From Dietzia psychralcaliphila (lineage in GTDB: Bacteria; Actinomycetota; Actinomycetes; Mycobacteriales; Mycobacteriaceae), in NCBI RefSeq assembly GCF_003096095.1, contig NZ_CP015453.1, positions 3,410,001 through 3,474,000 of the forward strand: a stretch of DNA of 64,000 nt, in the 5' to 3' direction. The notes beneath the pieces are model-generated. The model was given only the letters and a program-made list of their open reading frames with translations, did no database searches and was not told the DNA's origin. Within the stretch, counting starts at the first letter, position 1, and each line of letters begins with the position of its first letter. A program made the translations under genes and the position numbers. Below, one piece after another: positions 2,198-21,600 of this stretch.

Positions 2198-3076
2198 CTA
2201 GCGGGCCCGCAGTACCAGCACGAGGTTCGACACCATGACCTCGCGGACCAGCGGCGCACGCACCAGCCACCACGCCCAGCGCGGGTGGTAGCGCGGGAAG
2301 GCGGCGAGCAGTTCACCCGCGTCGGTGCCCCGCGCCCACTCGAGCCCCTCCGCACAGCCCACCTCGAACAGCGACTCGCCGTACACGTTCTTGGGCGGGT
2401 GCCCGTGACGGCGTTCGTACATCCGCCGCGCCCGCTCACCGCCGAGATAATGGGTCAGGCCCATCTCGTGTCCGCCGAACGGTCCGTACCAGAGCGTGTA
2501 GGAGACGACGACGAGGCCACCGGGTCGAGTGACCCTGAGCATCTCCTCGGCCATGGTCCACGGCTCGGGCACGTGCTCGGCCACGTTGGAGGAGATGCAC
2601 ACGTCCACCGAGTCCGACCGGATGGGCAGCGACATCCCGCTCCCCCGGATCGAACCGGACTGATCAAGCCCGGCGGCGGACATCTCCCCCACGTCGGGCT
2701 CCACGGAGACGTAGCGCGCGCCCTCCGCGGCGTAGGCGTCGGAGAAGTAACCGGGACCGCCGCCCACGTCGAGGACGGTCAACCCCGGTAGCCGCGCGCC
2801 CGGCAGCCCGCCCGACCGGCCCACCTGCCGGCCGACCTGCTGGCCCACCTGCTGGCCCCCCGCTTGGTCTCCCAGTCGGTCTCCCGGTTGGTCCCCCGAC
2901 TCTGCCCACAGGTCCGCGACCAACTCGACCGTGTCGCGCGCCAGCCCGGAGTAGAAGGCGTCCGGGTCGGACTGTTCGAGGGGGAACGAGCGCAGGAGCC
3001 CGAGCGAGCGCCCGAAGGTGGCGCGCCGGGCGACCGACCGCAGCGCGCTCGACCGGTGATCTGCTGGTGGGGTCAC
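2198..3076 (-). CDS. Class I SAM-dependent methyltransferase
   Basis: A Methyltransf_11-type Rossmann fold: the SAM loop VLDVGGGPGYF, the acidic residue after VSVEPD and the post-motif SSNVAEHVPEP are visible. Between residues ~60 and ~100 lies a low-complexity G/Q/D/R insert (GDQ, GQQVG, GRQVG repeats) not typical of the family. The GTG start at 3076 has a possible -10 (TATCGT) just upstream, suggesting a leaderless mRNA; GTG 3109 is the alternative. By position it corresponds to Rv0224c, next to a glycosyltransferase. The acceptor is unknown. Confidence 0.86.
   Translation of the reverse strand: MTPPADHRSSALRSVARRATFGRSLGLLRSFPLEQSDPDAFYSGLARDTVELVADLWAESGDQPGDRLGDQAGGQQVGQQVGRQVGRSGGLPGARLPGLTVLDVGGGPGYFSDAYAAEGARYVSVEPDVGEMSAAGLDQSGSIRGSGMSLPIRSDSVDVCISSNVAEHVPEPWTMAEEMLRVTRPGGLVVVSYTLWYGPFGGHEMGLTHYLGGERARRMYERRHGHPPKNVYGESLFEVGCAEGLEWARGTDAGELLAAFPRYHPRWAWWLVRAPLVREVMVSNLVLVLRAR
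2815..2900. repeat. Low-complexity direct repeats inside methyltransferase gene
   Basis: Imperfect short repeats (CCGACCTGCTGGCCCACCTG and GGTCTCCC variants) encode the G/Q-rich insert of the methyltransferase. The reading frame is kept, so it is probably a flexible loop that expands and contracts by slippage. Confidence 0.6.
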
Positions 3077-3132
3077 AGCGGAGACGATACCGACGGGCCT
3101 CCGCCCCACCCGCGCTGCGTACAGTGTGCGCC
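3077..3132. promoter_or_regulatory. Divergent promoter region, methyltransferase / glycosyltransferase
   Basis: Only 56 bases separate the two chosen GTG starts. TACAGT lies just upstream of the plus-strand GTG and TATCGT just upstream of the minus-strand GTG. Both are at distances expected for leaderless transcripts in actinobacteria. No Shine-Dalgarno sequence is seen for either gene. The promoter assignment is inferred. Confidence 0.45.
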
Positions 3133-4398
3133 GTGGCTCGAATCCTGCTGCTGTGCTGGCGAGACAGCACCCATCCGCAGGGCGGTGGCAGCGAGCGGTA
3201 CCTGGAGCACGTCGCGGACGGCCTGGCGGCCGCAGGACACACCGTCATCTATCGGACCTCCCGTTCCCGCGGCGCGGCCCGCTCGGAGGTGAGGGCGGCC
3301 GGCGCAACCGGGTCCGCTGTCACCGGGTCGGGCGTCACGGTCAGCCGGGGAGGCGGCCGTTTCACCGTCTACCCGCGCGCCCTGGGGGCGATGCTCCTCG
3401 GGCGGGTCGGGCTGGGGCCACTCGGTCGGTTGCGGCGGCCCGACGTCGTCGTCGACACGCAGAACGGCGTCCCCTTCTTCTCCCGGCTCGCCACCACCGC
3501 CCCGGTCGTGGTGCTGGTCCACCACATCCACCGCGAACAGTGGCCCGTCGCCGGATGGTTGGTGGCGAGGATCGGCTGGTGGATCGAGTCGTGGCTCTCG
3601 CCGCGCGTGCACTCGCACAGTCAGTACGTGACCGTCTCGCTGCCGTCGGCGGAGGAACTCGCCGAGCTCGGTGTGGACCCGGCCCGCATCGCCGTGGTCC
3701 GCAACGGCCTGGACCCGCTACCCGCCGGGGTGCTGCCGGGCGGGTCCGGGACCCGTGCGGACGGCCCGCGCCTGGTGGTGCTGTCCCGACTGGTGCCGCA
3801 CAAACACGTCGAGGACGCCCTGGACGTGCTTGCAGCGCTACGCCAGACCTGTCCCGAGCTGGTACTGGATGTGATCGGGAGCGGCTGGTGGTCCGACCGT
3901 CTCCGCGAGTACGCGGGCGATCTCGGACTGGACGGCCCCGGGCCAGATCACCCCGCGGGTGCGGTGGTGTTCCACGGGCACGTCGACGAGGCCACCAAGC
4001 ACCGGATCCTCGCTTCGGCGTCGCTCCACCTCATGCCCTCGCGCAAGGAGGGGTGGGGTCTCGCAGTGTCCGAGGCCGCCCAGCACGGCGTGCCCACCAT
4101 CGGCTACCACCACGCGGCCGGGCTGCGGGACTCGATCGACGACGGCCAGACCGGCCTCCTCGTGGACGACGTCGCGGCCATGACGGCGGCGACCGGGCGC
4201 CTGCTGGCCGATCCCGCGCTGCGCGGCCGCATGGGCGAGGCCGCCCGCCGCAAGGCCGCCGGGCTGTCGTGGCCCGCGACCGGGGAGGCGATGGCGGAGG
4301 TCCTCACGGCCGTCACCGAGGGACGCCGGGTCAGCGGCGTGATCGGCGGCGGGATCGGCGGCCCGCCCAGGCGAGCGCCGCAGCCACCACACCGGTGA
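3133..4398 (+). CDS. GT4-family glycosyltransferase
   Basis: About 421 residues with a GT-B fold. The N-terminal GGGSERYLEHVADGL loop is typical of GT4 acceptor domains. The C-terminal donor domain has VVLSRLVPHK, SRKEGWGLAVSEAA (the EX7E region) and the downstream HHAAGLRDSI. It probably adds a nucleotide-sugar-derived residue to an envelope glycan and matches Rv0225 by position. The GTG start precedes ARILLLCWRD. Its last 68 bases overlap the 3' end of the convergent membrane-protein gene, and the C-terminal tail is Pro/Arg/Gly-rich, as expected of a read-through extension. Confidence 0.88.
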   Translation: MARILLLCWRDSTHPQGGGSERYLEHVADGLAAAGHTVIYRTSRSRGAARSEVRAAGATGSAVTGSGVTVSRGGGRFTVYPRALGAMLLGRVGLGPLGRLRRPDVVVDTQNGVPFFSRLATTAPVVVLVHHIHREQWPVAGWLVARIGWWIESWLSPRVHSHSQYVTVSLPSAEELAELGVDPARIAVVRNGLDPLPAGVLPGGSGTRADGPRLVVLSRLVPHKHVEDALDVLAALRQTCPELVLDVIGSGWWSDRLREYAGDLGLDGPGPDHPAGAVVFHGHVDEATKHRILASASLHLMPSRKEGWGLAVSEAAQHGVPTIGYHHAAGLRDSIDDGQTGLLVDDVAAMTAATGRLLADPALRGRMGEAARRKAAGLSWPATGEAMAEVLTAVTEGRRVSGVIGGGIGGPPRRAPQPPHR

Positions 4399-17739: not shown

Positions 17740-17774
17740 GGCCGGGGACACCCCCGAGGAGGTCCCGCCGCCGC

Positions 17775-18827
17775 ATGCCCAATCGCCGCATGCACAGCCG
17801 ACGCACGCACAGTCAACGCATGCACAGTCGACGCACGCCCGGTCGCGGCGGGGCCGAACTCTCCCGCCGGTCCCTGCTGATCGGCTTGTCACTGGGAGCG
17901 GGCGGTGGGGCGGGATGGGCGTTGACCTCGGCACTCGGGGCGGACGACGACGAGGCGACGTCCGGCCCGGGTACCGAATCCGTGACTCCCCGCCCTTACG
18001 TCGCACCCGAGGGCGCGGTCCCGGTCATGGAACCCCGCCGGTTCTTCTACGCCGACCCCGGCGACACCGACGGGCAGACCTTCGGTGACCTCTACCTGCC
18101 CGAGTCGGACAATCCGGCACTGCCGGTGGTGGTGTTGATCCACGGCGGCGGGTGGAAGGACTCGCTGGGCCTGGCCTACATGGAGAACCAGGCACGCGAC
18201 CTGGCCTCCTTCGACGTGGCGGTGTGGAACATCGAGTACCGCCGCGTGGGCTCGGGGGGTGGCTGGCCCACCACGGTCGCGGACGTGTGCGGGGCCGTGG
18301 ACCACCTGGTGGAGGTCTCCGCACAGGTGGGTCACCGTCTCGACCTCCGGCGGGTGGTGGTCTCCGGGCATTCGGCCGGCGGACACCTGGCGCTGTGGGT
18401 GGCCGGGCGGGCGCGCCTGCCGTCCTCACTGCCCGGGTCCCGCCCCGTGGTCCCGGTCTCCGGCTGTGTGTCCCTGGCCGGGGTCGCCGACCTGCTCCAC
18501 GCCGAGGAGTCCGGTGACAAGTACGTCGCCGGACTCCTCGGCGGTCGCTCCGACACCCGCCGTCAGCGCTACCGGGACGCCTCGCCCGTGGCTCACCTTC
18601 CCACCGGCGTCCCGGTGGTGTGCGTCCACGGTCGTGACGACGAGGTGGTCCTGCCCGAGCAGTCTGAGGACTACGTGCGGGCGGCCCGCCGGGTGGGCGA
18701 TCCCGCCCGCGTCTCGCTGGTCCCCGGTGGCCACGACCCGTGGGGCGACATCACCGGCCGGGCGTGGCACGACACCCGCGACACGATGCTCGCGATGGCG
18801 CGCGGGATCCCCGGCCCCACCGGGTGA
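17775..18827 (+). CDS. Tat-exported alpha/beta-hydrolase (HGGGW esterase)
   Basis: About 350 residues. A Tat motif SRRSLLIG at residues 30-37 precedes a hydrophobic stretch, so it is exported folded. The catalytic parts are the oxyanion loop HGGGW near 122, nucleophile GHSAGG near 198, Asp in HGRDDEVV and His in PGGHDPW. This matches the BD-FAE/kynurenine-formamidase-like esterase fold. The n-region before the twin Arg is built from a 15-base tandem repeat. GAGGAGG lies 12 bases before ATG 17775, rather far; ATG 17790 is possible. Confidence 0.85.
   Translation: MPNRRMHSRRTHSQRMHSRRTPGRGGAELSRRSLLIGLSLGAGGGAGWALTSALGADDDEATSGPGTESVTPRPYVAPEGAVPVMEPRRFFYADPGDTDGQTFGDLYLPESDNPALPVVVLIHGGGWKDSLGLAYMENQARDLASFDVAVWNIEYRRVGSGGGWPTTVADVCGAVDHLVEVSAQVGHRLDLRRVVVSGHSAGGHLALWVAGRARLPSSLPGSRPVVPVSGCVSLAGVADLLHAEESGDKYVAGLLGGRSDTRRQRYRDASPVAHLPTGVPVVCVHGRDDEVVLPEQSEDYVRAARRVGDPARVSLVPGGHDPWGDITGRAWHDTRDTMLAMARGIPGPTG
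17787..17846 (+). repeat. Four tandem 15-bp repeats in Tat signal n-region
   Basis: Units at 17787, 17802, 17817 and 17832 follow CGCATGCACAGYCGA / CGCACGCACAGTCAA and encode RMHSR, RTHSQ, RMHSR and RTPGR. Units 1 and 3 differ by one base. The repeat keeps frame, so copy number would change only the length of the basic n-region. Confidence 0.85.
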
Positions 18828-18842
18828 CGGACGGTCCCGGGG

Positions 18843-19343
18843 TCAGGCGTCGGTGTAGCCGGTGTCGACCCTGATCCGCTCGAGCCGCCGGTGGGAGATC
18901 AGCCACCGACCGTCCACCCTGCGGTATCGCTCGTGGTAGTGGCCCCAGCCGTGCAGCCACCGCTCACGCCCGTCGTCGGTCCACCACAGCCGGTCCTCCA
19001 TGGTCCAGATCCCGGTGGCGGTGGGCTCGCCGGTCTCCGGGTGCGGGCCCGTGAGGTCCAGCAGCGGGGTGTGACCGTGGTGGACGCTGGTCACCGGGAC
19101 GCGGCCGTCGAGGGTCGCGCGGATCGCGGCGGTGAGTTGCTCGCGGCCCCGCACCTCGGGCGCCCCGCCGCTGGCCGCCCAGGACTGGCTGACCACGTCC
19201 ACGGTGTGACACGGCCCGTAGTCGTCCCACTGCTTGGTGTCCATCACGTACAGCCGGCGGGCGAACACGGCCCGGATGGCCTCCAGGTCGTCTGCGCGGG
19301 GGGTCACGTGGTGTGGTCGGCTCGCGTCGTGCGGTCCGCTCAC
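18843..19343 (-). CDS. SnoaL-like (NTF2-fold) protein coupled to argJ
   Basis: About 166 residues. The length, the Trp/His-rich core (TMEDRLWWTDDGRERWLHGWGHYHE) and the helix containing VFARRLYVMDTKQWDDY fit SnoaL_4 proteins such as ketosteroid-isomerase-like or dioxygenase small-subunit-like folds. GTG 19343 overlaps the argJ stop as GTGA, supporting translational coupling; GTG 19307 is the alternative. The reaction is unknown, and the pairing with argJ is unexpected. Confidence 0.75.
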   Translation of the reverse strand: MSGPHDASRPHHVTPRADDLEAIRAVFARRLYVMDTKQWDDYGPCHTVDVVSQSWAASGGAPEVRGREQLTAAIRATLDGRVPVTSVHHGHTPLLDLTGPHPETGEPTATGIWTMEDRLWWTDDGRERWLHGWGHYHERYRRVDGRWLISHRRLERIRVDTGYTDA

Positions 19344-20557
19344 GTCGTGTAGTCGGCGTTGATCGAGATGTACTCGCGCGAGAGGTCGCAGCCGTAGACC
19401 GTGCAGGACCCGTCGGCTGCGCCCCCCTCCACACCCAGGTCGACCGAGATCGTGACCTCCTCGGCGCGCATGATCTCGGTGAGCCGCTCGAGCTCGGCCT
19501 CGCCGGGGAACGCCGGGTAGGTCTCCAGGTCGCCGAAGACGATGCGGACGCGCTCCGGATCGATGTCGGTGTCGTCGTGGCACTTGCCGATCGCCATGGC
19601 GACGCGGCCCCAGTTGGGGTCCGCCCCGTGGACGGCGGTCTTGACCAGCGGGGAGTTGAGGATCGCCTTGGCCACGCGCTTGGCCTGATCGCGGTCCCGT
19701 GCCCCGGTGACCTCGACGGTCAGCAGCTTGGTGGCTCCCTCTCCGTCGCGGGCCAGTTGGAGGGTCAGGTCCAGGCACACGGCCTCGAGGGCCCTGCGCA
19801 GCTCCCCCTCGTCCACCGGCCCGGCCACACCGCTGGCCACCGCGATCGCGGTGTCGGAGGTCGAGGTGTCGGTGTCCACGGACAGGCAGTTGAAGGTGTC
19901 GTCCACCGCGCCCCTGAACGCGGTGTCCAGCACACCGGGCTCCACGGCGGCGTCGGTGAAGACCACGGCGATCATCGTGGCCATGTCGGGTTCGACCATC
20001 CCGACCCCCTTGGCGATGCCCACCACCCGGGCGGTCGCGCCGCTCGTCGTCGTCATCTCCACCGACGCGGTCTTGGGATGGGTGTCGGTGGTCATCATGG
20101 CCGCGGCCAGCGCCAGTGCGTCGGCGTCGAACTCCGCGCCGGCCAACCCGTCCAGGTGGGTCCGCAGTATCGACATCGGGTAACGCCGACCGATCACGCC
20201 GGTGGAGGCGATGAGCAACTCCTCGGGCGCGACGCCCACGGCACCGGCCGCCCGCTCCAGGACCTCGCGCGCGTCGGCCATGCCCTGGTCCCCGGTGGCG
20301 ACGTTGGCGTTCTTGGCCACCACCACCACACCACGCGCGCGGCCGCCCGCAGCGTTCTCGCGGCTGAGCACGACCGAGGGCCCGGCGAAGAGAGAGCGGG
20401 TGAAGACCGCCGAGGAGGCCACCGAGGGACCGTCGGCGACCACGACGAAGACGTCGTCCCCGTGCTCGCGCAGTCCCGCGGCCCCCGCGTGGGCGCGAAA
20501 GCCCGCGGGCAGGGGGATCGGTCCGGAGGGGCTGGTGTCGGTGCGGGTGGCGTTCAC
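19340..20557 (-). CDS. argJ: ArgJ-type glutamate/ornithine N-acetyltransferase (orphan)
   Basis: About 405 residues. ArgJ moves acetyl from N-acetylornithine to glutamate. Signature segments are AVFTRSLFAGPSV, ASTGVIG, TTDTHPK, KGVGMVEPDMATM (self-cleavage before the nucleophile Thr in MATM), GADPNWGR and the C-terminal INADYTT. The cleavage motif reads GVGMVEPD where typical ArgJ reads SGMIxPN. No argC, argB, argD or argF is near, so it may be a second copy or an OAT2-like relative with a different acyl acceptor. Confidence 0.88.
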   Translation of the reverse strand: MNATRTDTSPSGPIPLPAGFRAHAGAAGLREHGDDVFVVVADGPSVASSAVFTRSLFAGPSVVLSRENAAGGRARGVVVVAKNANVATGDQGMADAREVLERAAGAVGVAPEELLIASTGVIGRRYPMSILRTHLDGLAGAEFDADALALAAAMMTTDTHPKTASVEMTTTSGATARVVGIAKGVGMVEPDMATMIAVVFTDAAVEPGVLDTAFRGAVDDTFNCLSVDTDTSTSDTAIAVASGVAGPVDEGELRRALEAVCLDLTLQLARDGEGATKLLTVEVTGARDRDQAKRVAKAILNSPLVKTAVHGADPNWGRVAMAIGKCHDDTDIDPERVRIVFGDLETYPAFPGEAELERLTEIMRAEEVTISVDLGVEGGAADGSCTVYGCDLSREYISINADYTT

Positions 20558-20632: not shown

Positions 20633-20648
20633 TGTGAGATAGCTCGCA
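20633..20648. promoter_or_regulatory. CRP/GlxR-like operator
   Basis: TGTGAGATAGCTCGCA matches the actinobacterial cAMP-receptor consensus TGTGANNTANNTCACA at all fixed positions but one, and the dyad extends one base each side (G...C). It is centred about 40 bases upstream of the candidate -10 of the small peptide gene. The argJ start is about 75 bases away on the other side and could also respond. Confidence 0.65.
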
Positions 20649-20678
20649 CCTGAGCAATCCCAGTCCCGGCCTTACTGT

Positions 20679-20687
20679 TGCTATGAA
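20679..20687 (+). promoter_or_regulatory. Candidate extended -10 promoter
   Basis: TGCTATGAA has a TG-N-TATGAA extended -10; no good -35 is seen, consistent with an activator-dependent promoter below the CRP/GlxR-like site. It predicts a transcript start near 20694 and a leader of about 160 bases. Confidence 0.45.
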
Positions 20688-20736
20688 CGTGGGCTTACCG
20701 CCTCCGGGGCCGCATAACCCCTCGTCAGGTGGGTTT

Positions 20737-20832
20737 CGACGTCACGGCTGGGTAACGTCGGCCCGAGTCGTTCGGATGTACCCAACGAGCGTCCGAACGA
20801 CGCAGACCTCGGCGGTGGAGAGTCCACCGCCG
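20737..20832 (+). other. Structured 5' leader with three perfect stem-loops
   Basis: The 297-base gap between argJ and the peptide gene holds three inverted repeats. They are 20737-20742/20755-20760 (6 bp), 20767-20776/20792-20801 (10 bp, 15-base loop) and 20810-20819/20823-20832 (10 bp, 3-base loop). The last ends eight bases before the AAAGGA ribosome binding site. This could stabilise the mRNA, control translation or protect a short abundant transcript. No known riboswitch is recognised. Confidence 0.65.
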
Positions 20833-20854
20833 GTACGACGAAAGGATCTACACC

Positions 20855-20995
20855 ATGATCTCTGACTTCATCAACGGCATCGCCACCGGTTCCGCCACCG
20901 TCAACACCGGCTCCGAGGCCGCCGATTTCGGCACCGACCTCATCGCCCAGGTCCTCGGCTTCTTCGGTGGCTTCGTCGAGAACTTCGGCTCCTGA
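20855..20995 (+). CDS. 46-residue acidic amphipathic peptide, candidate mycomembrane mini-porin
   Basis: AAAGGA lies eight bases before the ATG and the frame ends in TGA. The product has no Lys or Arg, five acidic residues, many Gly/Ser/Thr and a C-terminal run LIAQVLGFFGGFVENFG. Length, charge and Phe/Gly-rich helix resemble corynebacterial PorA/PorH porins (45-57 residues, no signal peptide, O-mycoloylated on Ser), though no alignment was made. Ser3, 13, 20 and 46 are candidate acylation sites. The gene stands alone with its own promoter, structured leader and terminator. A secreted or phenol-soluble-modulin-like peptide is the alternative. Confidence 0.7.
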   Translation: MISDFINGIATGSATVNTGSEAADFGTDLIAQVLGFFGGFVENFGS

Positions 20996-21058
20996 GCCGA
21001 CGCGCCTGACGGCGCGCCGCTCGGGCCAGGCCCAGCCTGACCCGGGCACCACGTGTGA

Positions 21059-21086
21059 CCGGCCCCGCCTCGGCGGGGCCGGTTTT
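21059..21086 (+). terminator. Intrinsic terminator after the 46-residue peptide gene
   Basis: CCGGCCCCGCC and GGCGGGGCCGG form an 11-base GC-only stem with a 2-base gap, followed by TTTT. It lies 64 bases after the peptide stop and upstream of the SRPBCC gene, so the peptide mRNA should be monocistronic. Confidence 0.85.
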
Positions 21087-21135: not shown

Positions 21136-21600
21136 ATGCATCTCGACCTCTCCCGTCACGTCGCCGCCGACCCCGACGCGGTCTGGGCGGTGCTCACCGA
21201 CATCCCCTCGGCACACCGCACCCTCAGCGGGGTCCTGGCGGTCGAGATCCTCACCCCCGGCCCCTACCAGCCGGGACTCCGGTGGCGGGAGACGCGCAAG
21301 ATGTTCGGCATGAAGGCCACGGAGGAGATGATGGTGGTCGCCGCCGAACCTCCGCACTCCACCGCGATCGTCGCCGAGAACGGTGGCACTGAATACAAGA
21401 CCGTGTTCACCGTGACCCCGGACGCCGACGGCACCGGATCGACCCTGCGGATGCGGTTCGGTGCCCATACCGCACATGCCCCGGCGATCTCCCGGGTCGC
21501 GATGGCCGTGATGGGCGGCCTCGCGGAGAGGTCGACCCGCAAGACCATGGAGCAGGACCTGGCGGACATCGCGGCGGAAGCCGAACGCCGCGCGGGCTGA
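21136..21600 (+). CDS. SRPBCC (START-like) domain protein
   Basis: About 154 residues. The opening HLDLSRHVAADPDAVWAVLTD and the beta-strand pattern through to a long C-terminal helix ending ERRAG fit the polyketide cyclase/SRPBCC fold, a hydrophobic-ligand cavity. There is no catalytic residue to assign. TAACCT lies seven bases before the ATG with no ribosome binding site, suggesting a leaderless mRNA. Confidence 0.82.
   Translation: MHLDLSRHVAADPDAVWAVLTDIPSAHRTLSGVLAVEILTPGPYQPGLRWRETRKMFGMKATEEMMVVAAEPPHSTAIVAENGGTEYKTVFTVTPDADGTGSTLRMRFGAHTAHAPAISRVAMAVMGGLAERSTRKTMEQDLADIAAEAERRAG

Follow-up and report, generated by a model that had tools for sequence, protein, structure and literature searches.

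The window analysed here is a 64,000-nucleotide stretch of the 3.9-Mb genome of Dietzia psychralcaliphila (C1 3410001-3474000; the genome is labelled G000). On its forward strand, at 20855-20995, the open reading frame list and conservation place a gene for a 46-residue mini-protein, MISDFINGIATGSATVNTGSEAADFGTDLIAQVLGFFGGFVENFGS, which belongs to what we term family A. The gene is flanked on the left by argJ (19343-20557, reverse strand; PF01960, E = 1.1e-123, supported by synteny) and on the right by a Polyketide_cyc2/SRPBCC gene (21136-21600, forward strand; PF10604, E = 4.6e-18). Both neighbours are conserved, the latter being present in 17 of 23 Dietzia genomes. The product possesses no lysine, no arginine and a net charge of -5, and no match to it was found in Pfam, NCBIfam, the PDB sequences or plasmid records. 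The single named record inspected for how such short genes are annotated is nearly bare of annotation. A second DNA match of 27 nt in G000 was taken as chance. Directly after the AMP-binding gene, the window contains a 15-bp tandem repeat (CGCATGCACAGTCGA, 4.3 copies, 17772-17835).

A tblastn search with the window protein returned matches in 20 of the 23 Dietzia genomes (E up to 10). When read out, these fell mainly into family A, found in 14 genomes, and family B, extracted from 11; five weak family-B-like matches (G002, G006, G016, G019 and G020) and about six weaker matches in longer frames were not extracted. Conservation of the frame had been set beforehand as a refuting test in a preliminary description made from the sequence of the window. 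An intact, syntenic frame between argJ and the Polyketide_cyc2 gene was found in all 14 genomes carrying family A, that is, in 14 of the 23. Furthermore, each of the 17 genomes possessing the Polyketide_cyc2 gene has at least one mini-gene adjoining it (argJ was checked on the far side in 15). Relatives of this right neighbour among named genomes comprise 12 Dietzia records and three distant ones from other genera; the three non-Dietzia loci contain no such mini-gene, and an unrelated-looking 33-residue frame is present in two. The family-A alignment (A1) contains every orthologue except G004 (4 differences in 51 from G010), 13 in all, and the family-B alignment (A2) nine of the 11 extracted sequences, two duplicates being left out.

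Eleven of the 14 family-A loci have a second mini-gene upstream, on the same strand; in the window species and in its two closest relatives the argJ interval contains a single mini-gene. In G009, the interval contains a third leader and a third gene (L006 346-596, forward strand), a 47-residue copy with four arginines, unlike its sisters.

Within the closest trio, the flanks contain 8 indel columns and the coding sequence none; its variable sites are distributed 2/1/8 over the three codon positions. The synonymous excess looked for in the preliminary description is present: changes relative to the two closest relatives are few and mostly synonymous, with dN/dS of 0.12 and 0.16. Across six pooled pairs, pN/pS was 0.62, which indicates moderate residue constraint. 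In distant pairs dN/dS is near or above 1 because dS is low, and the whole-family ratio is for that reason little informative. Invariant F, G, S and D residues nevertheless persist among diverged family-A proteins. Additionally, 26 of 26 box codons in the family-A gene end in C or T. Codons ending in G or A account for 38-42% in the SRPBCC, ArgJ and AMP-binding genes and for 25% in rplB; a codon bias stronger than that of rplB is read as a probable sign of high expression.

High-GC DNA contains many long spurious open reading frames, and a chance frame is one alternative to consider. Lysine and arginine make up 9.1% of residues in five window proteins, so that their complete absence from 46 residues has a chance probability of about 0.012. 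In a 464-kb sample of this genome (20 sampled 20-kb stretches together with the window, the paralogue near C1:158090 lying outside it), the frame at 20855 is the sole Lys/Arg-free ATG or GTG frame of 36-70 residues with a Shine-Dalgarno sequence. When the Shine-Dalgarno requirement was dropped, 13 Lys/Arg-free start-to-stop frames of 38-70 residues were found. This uniqueness, together with conservation in 14 genomes with the Shine-Dalgarno sequence, refutes a chance frame, whose probability we regard as negligible. The gene at 20855-20995 is real and under selection, as the preliminary description had proposed.

That description had also drawn attention to an amphipathic, Lys/Arg-free product. 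The second half of this statement stands: neither residue occurs in 10 of the 14 orthologues, and a single one in the other four. Amphipathicity is a more modest signal. The C-terminal segment 28-45 has a helical hydrophobic moment of 0.43, with 2.6% of shuffles as high; corynebacterial PorA does not stand out in the same test (16% of shuffles as high). Family A keeps two invariant GS motifs (S13 and S20), seven residues apart, as well as a C-terminal GS.

The control region begins with a CRP/GlxR-like box, TGTGAGATAGCTCGCA (20633-20648, forward strand), with one mismatch to TGTGAN6TCACA. The box recurs with 0-2 mismatches in all 12 orthologous promoters scanned (of 14). Its position is -217 to -222 in 11 of them and -238 in the other, and ten have at most one mismatch. 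L098 has a second, equally good site at -375. By analogy, GlxR would be the candidate binder. The extended -10 element, TGCTATGAA (20679-20687, forward strand), was upheld in part: its TATGAA (20682-20687) occurs unchanged in the two closest relatives and the preceding TG in one of them, and no -35/-10 pair was found in the sigma-70 scan. A Shine-Dalgarno sequence, GAAAGGA (20840-20846, forward strand), ends 8 nt before the ATG and is invariant in the 14 aligned orthologues, in agreement with the strong ribosome site noted earlier. Directly 3' of the gene lies a terminator-like hairpin with a short T-tail (21057-21086, forward strand; 12-bp stem). The hairpin proper (21057-21084) is strong and kept in the closest trio. 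As a T-tailed terminator it is less convincing, the tail being only TTTT in the window and TTT in the relatives; the terminator scan found no site, the hairpin falling below the scan's T-run threshold.

Between promoter and gene, the transcript is predicted to fold. The 191-nt leader has a folding energy of z = -3.5 against shuffles, and its structured part (20748-20842, forward strand) is matched by our covariance model R1 with 69.6 bits (E = 4.6e-14), the window being in the training set. Its elements are a possible closing helix P1 (CGTC/GACG, 20756-20759 with 20837-20840), a hairpin P2 of 13 bp in the minimum free energy fold of the window (20767-20801, forward strand) and a hairpin P3 of 10 bp with a GAG loop (20810-20832, forward strand), which shows compensatory changes. 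Among 13 distinct sequences in an unfitted MAFFT alignment, three of seven P3 pairs have changes on both sides, and among 27 distinct leaders this holds for four of seven P3 pairs and one of four P1 pairs. None of 500 shuffles reached the covariation score observed for the 27 leaders. Because these leaders are related to one another and were aligned by fitting to the structure, the covariation counts as support and not as proof. RNAalifold proposed both P1 and P3 from the unfitted MAFFT alignment, and P3 only from the larger set. By eye, P2 appears in single-sequence folds of 13 of the 14 leaders. The energy pairing test was mixed (a leader's own 3' arm paired better than the average of the others in six of 11) and the gapless own-versus-cross test weak (8.8 versus 7.9 of 11 pairs), and P2 is therefore not claimed to covary. 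In Rfam, nothing in the window reached the gathering thresholds, and the leader gave six matches far below the gathering scores.

A structured leader of about 97 nt also precedes the second mini-gene in the argJ interval of relatives. R1 was built from 12 family-A leaders (A6 and R1 use 12 of the 14 leaders in A5) and searched against 42 sources totalling 583,031 bases with a cut-off of E up to 0.005. It gave 21 matches: ten at family-A genes and 11 upstream of a mini-gene of family C or D. The latter have the same neighbour beside them and all lie outside the training set; two of the 11 share one sequence, and the match in L101 is poor and without P3. In a 400-kb sample of G000 the best match had only E = 3. 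The leader matches between families A and C more easily than the proteins do; a gene may have been duplicated along with its leader. A leader common to a second gene, and the multi-family, multi-locus group to which the gene belongs, are beyond the view of a single sequence. Such a shared leader RNA provides a handle on the control of these mini-genes.

A long structured leader common to several mini-genes, followed by a terminator-like hairpin directly 3' of the gene, might suggest that the frame is a regulatory or leader open reading frame, or that the transcript is a small RNA with an incidental peptide. This is contradicted by the conservation of the frame itself, with its codon-position pattern and freedom from indels, and by the residues kept in diverged proteins. 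Moreover, R1 found no leader at the loci of families B, F and G, at the trio of mini-genes in G022, or at the Nocardia and corynebacterial loci tried. We consider a regulatory role of this kind highly improbable.

The group to which family A belongs comprises Lys/Arg-poor, GS-motif proteins of 37-62 residues that form several families in Dietzia. Family B (MFSDFW...LFGS) occurs in G000 itself at C1:158090. This second mini-locus (L065 2588-2734, reverse strand, and 2969-3151, forward strand; C1 about 158087-158650) pairs the family B gene with a divergent gene for a GS-rich protein of 60 residues (family H), which overlaps the start of a long open reading frame, by eye a sulfite/nitrite reductase. 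R1 did not match there. Family C (MIEQIF..FF..LIGTGSAAAEG..., 48-55 residues) accounts for most of the second, upstream mini-genes in family-A loci. With a profile of ten of these family C sequences and a cut-off of E = 0.05, 13 of the 23 Dietzia genomes gave a match, which in 11 had E = 3.3e-13 or better; G000 was not among them. Family D proteins have 59-62 residues. Families E and F are represented by MFSDILNQLGWGS and MIS-IL-QL, and family G by a tandem trio in G001. The Dietzia genome G022, in which tblastn found no family A or B match, has three similar tandem genes of 39 residues (L187 719-1617, reverse strand; MGSIENLAGVFF...). Beyond the Polyketide_cyc2 gene, D. aurantiaca (L098 4043-4420, reverse strand) and D. 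aerolata (L099 4043-4421, reverse strand) contain a further pair of GS-rich mini-genes of 56 and 47 residues.

In profile comparison by HHalign, families B, G and E/F reached 95-96% with family A, the G and E/F profiles being built from three sequences each. The link to C was less firm, at 54%, and one shuffle reached 13.6%. Families B and C keep three GS dipeptides each. In a helical peptide, GS serines spaced by 7 and 11 residues would face the same side.

Similar genes were found in other genera. When 301 genomes of the GTDB family were searched with a profile built from tandem mini-genes of the genus labelled g22, 30 gave a match at E up to 0.01. Of these, 20 belong to g22 and three to g14 and g19 (E = 2e-8 or better); another match is at a Dietzia family-C gene, and six weak ones (E = 0.003 or above) look like noise. 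The profile did not match G000. A match to N. farcinica NZ_LN868939.1, with 97% identity over 37 residues, identifies g22 as Nocardia. The genes of g22, g14 and g19 encode MIPVIIDTGSAALNGLFDTLGAALHGLVNTLWTGSFGA-like 38-mers and differ by 1493 synonymous and 839 non-synonymous codon changes (18 sequences; pairwise and not independent). A profile combining families C and D with the G022 trio likewise gave matches in g22, where it reached 16 genomes (E = 2e-8 to 3e-3), and in a single genome of g14, partly at the same places as the g22 profile, and gave no match in G000. HHalign scored the Nocardia set at 86% with family C, 77% with B and 40% with A.

The A1 profile matched 125 of 201 genomes at E up to 1. 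Its matches outside Dietzia were treated as noise, being mostly short stretches in long frames, with the exception of Nocardia-type places in G202 and G175 and a frame in G043 (L070). The two Nocardia-type genomes have three tandem Lys/Arg-free mini-genes of 37-44 residues (L063 2329-3180 and L064 2450-3304, both reverse strand). The G043 frame (L070 2400-2633, reverse strand) encodes a 77-residue protein with, by eye, a first part resembling a Sec signal followed by an STGS...D..S module; it is possibly a secreted form of the mini-protein. Short Ser/Gly/Ala-rich sequences can be alike without common descent, and caution is therefore due on the homology of all forms. Judged from their sequences, such homology is likely inside the genus Dietzia; from one genus to another it is no more than plausible.

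The outer membrane channels encoded by these genomes bear on what the mini-proteins might do. MspA (PF09203) was found in none of the 23 Dietzia genomes, nor in the 15 of good quality among them, and G000 gave no match. In a control set from the family, comprising 35 genomes in 31 genera, MspA was found in 26 genomes and 24 genera. The search gave nothing in the two Dietzia of that set, in either genome of g3 (identified as Corynebacterium from its PorA/PorH genes) or in single representatives of five other genera. These single representatives, G032, G034, G038, G041 and G045 (g11, g13, g17, g20 and g24), would be places to look for other mini-porins. A mycolate outer membrane without MspA needs another channel, for which the mini-proteins are plausible porins. 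Against such a need, the accessible part of a 2022 paper describes Dietzia channels as MspA-like (PMC9233653).

Mycoloyltransferase-like proteins are present in G000, where PF00756 has seven matches. A comparison with PDB sequences covered three of these proteins. The one near C1:3354874 is closest to Cmt1, with 7e-38 versus 9e-34 for PS1 and 2e-24 for Ag85A; the other two compared are as close or closer to PS1. Cmt1 is the C. glutamicum enzyme that mycoloylates PorA and PorH. By eye, the PF00756 proteins L191, L192, L194 and L195 contain, close to the N-terminus or at the C-terminus, GS-rich stretches that resemble the mini-proteins in composition and may possibly be mycoloylation sites themselves.

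Taking together the lack of an MspA match in Dietzia, the mycolate membrane of the genus and the features of the mini-protein, the most likely reading is that the window gene encodes an O-mycoloylated mini-protein of the mycomembrane which works like PorA, PorH or ProtX and is probably a channel subunit. We assign this reading a probability of roughly 0.6. The family-A protein would thus probably be a building block of the waxy outer membrane and possibly one of the missing pores of the genus. The mechanism that we infer, from promoter use and the binder of the box through the role of the leader, export, mycoloylation and oligomerisation to the pore, would run as follows. A CRP/GlxR-type activator and the extended -10 promoter would produce a monocistronic mRNA, whose folded leader may stabilise it or tune its translation. 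The acidic, amphipathic, signal-less peptide would cross the plasma membrane by the route of PorA and PorH, and a Cmt1/MytC-like mycoloyltransferase would O-mycoloylate one or more of its GS serines. In the mycolic-acid outer membrane, the peptide would then assemble with copies of itself or with sister mini-proteins into a helical bundle that most likely serves as a channel.

The sequence evidence also fits a mycoloylated, wall-linked mini-protein of the mycomembrane that, like ProtX, would have a structural or anchoring role and form no pore. PorH and ProtX are reported to be linked to the cell wall (PMC12632848, in the part of the text available), and the many divergent forms in Dietzia suggest surface variation rather than one fixed pore. 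Such a role would leave unfilled the need for a pore in a genus in which no MspA was found, for which the mini-genes of the argJ locus are natural candidates, and we regard it as rather unlikely.

Small size, amphipathicity, several families and tandem arrays in relatives would also accord with a small membrane toxin or bacteriocin-like peptide. Most peptides of that kind are cationic. The window peptide is acidic and free of lysine and arginine, the gene keeps one fixed locus in 14 of 23 genomes, and its neighbours, argJ and the Polyketide_cyc2 gene, include no transporter or immunity gene. Type I toxins and bacteriocins were rejected on these grounds, leaving such a function improbable. PE, PPE and Esx proteins were likewise set aside, no such motif being seen by eye.

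More broadly, and still more tentatively than the channel reading, the signal-less, Lys/Arg-poor GS mini-proteins could be an uncatalogued mycomembrane class in several mycolic-acid genera, serving as the general porins of Dietzia and controlled by the shared leader and a CRP-type box; we hold this to be possible, at somewhat less than even odds. If true, it would take protein O-mycoloylation well beyond Corynebacterium. Whether proteins outside Corynebacterium are mycoloylated was stated to be open in 2017, in the portion of that paper available (PMC5310785), and the GS mini-proteins of Dietzia and of Nocardia provide candidate substrates. The D. maris genome was sequenced for insight into a pore-forming protein, according to a 2016 genome note (PMC4901239). 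The gene of the D. maris cell-wall channel is not named in the literature examined, and the Dietzia mini-genes provide concrete candidates for the Dietzia channel. A full-text search of literature that includes few subscription papers returned no description of such Dietzia or Nocardia genes in the text available, which is no proof of absence.

Among known systems, MspA-type porins resemble the proposed product in being cell-wall channels of mycolata. They are larger (the model has 179 positions), and the window protein has no Pfam match. The preliminary description had likened the peptide to PorA and PorH, and this reading is partly supported: size, charge, the lack of a signal peptide and, in relatives, tandem genes fit, and the family models and the locus do not. 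In the search with mini-porin models that it had suggested, the window protein matched none of NF033925, NF033937 and NF033938, although the corynebacterial controls did so (PorA, 84.7 bits with NF033925; PorH, 40.5 bits with NF033938). HHalign aligned family A with PorA at 56%, a weak match over 29 columns only (five shuffles at most 1.8%), and with PorH at 3.8%, which is null (one shuffle 7.9%). Families B and C scored 0.2-7% with PorA or PorH, C with PorH giving 7.0%. PorA and PorH themselves score only 4.6% with one another, so that dissimilarity says little about function. The locus also differs, being argJ-SRPBCC here and groEL2-ppk2 in Corynebacterium, as given in the accessible part of PMC5944148. 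By these tests, membership of the PorA or PorH family is not supported, given the missing model match, the other locus and the weak profile similarity.

The likenesses are of another kind. PorA (45 residues) and PorH (57 residues) are described, in the part of PMC12632848 available, as small, signal-less and O-mycoloylated; they are thought there to form a hetero-oligomeric pore, modelled by AlphaFold with five copies of each. Judged from its sequence, the window protein shares with them a length under about 60 residues, acidity and the lack of a signal peptide (46 residues, net charge -5); having no lysine or arginine, it has no positive n-region. With regard to the alpha-helical fold of these porins, the window protein shows the modest helical hydrophobic moment given above. 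Like PorA it has its own Shine-Dalgarno sequence, and the weak HHalign match sets the LSS of PorA against the first GS of family A. PorH is a small acidic protein encoded beside PorA, an arrangement recalling the tandem mini-genes of 11 of the 14 orthologous loci; the window and its two closest relatives have a single gene there. ProtX is a further signal-less mycomembrane protein, likened here by description and not by sequence; the same available text describes all three corynebacterial proteins as lacking Sec signals. Finally, O-mycoloylation is reported, in the accessible part of PMC11066868, on serine and less often threonine among Gly, Ala and Ser, with no strict motif. Such Ser/Gly/Ala-rich sites in O-mycoloylated proteins of the C. 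glutamicum mycomembrane, ProtX among them, resemble the invariant GS motifs of family A.
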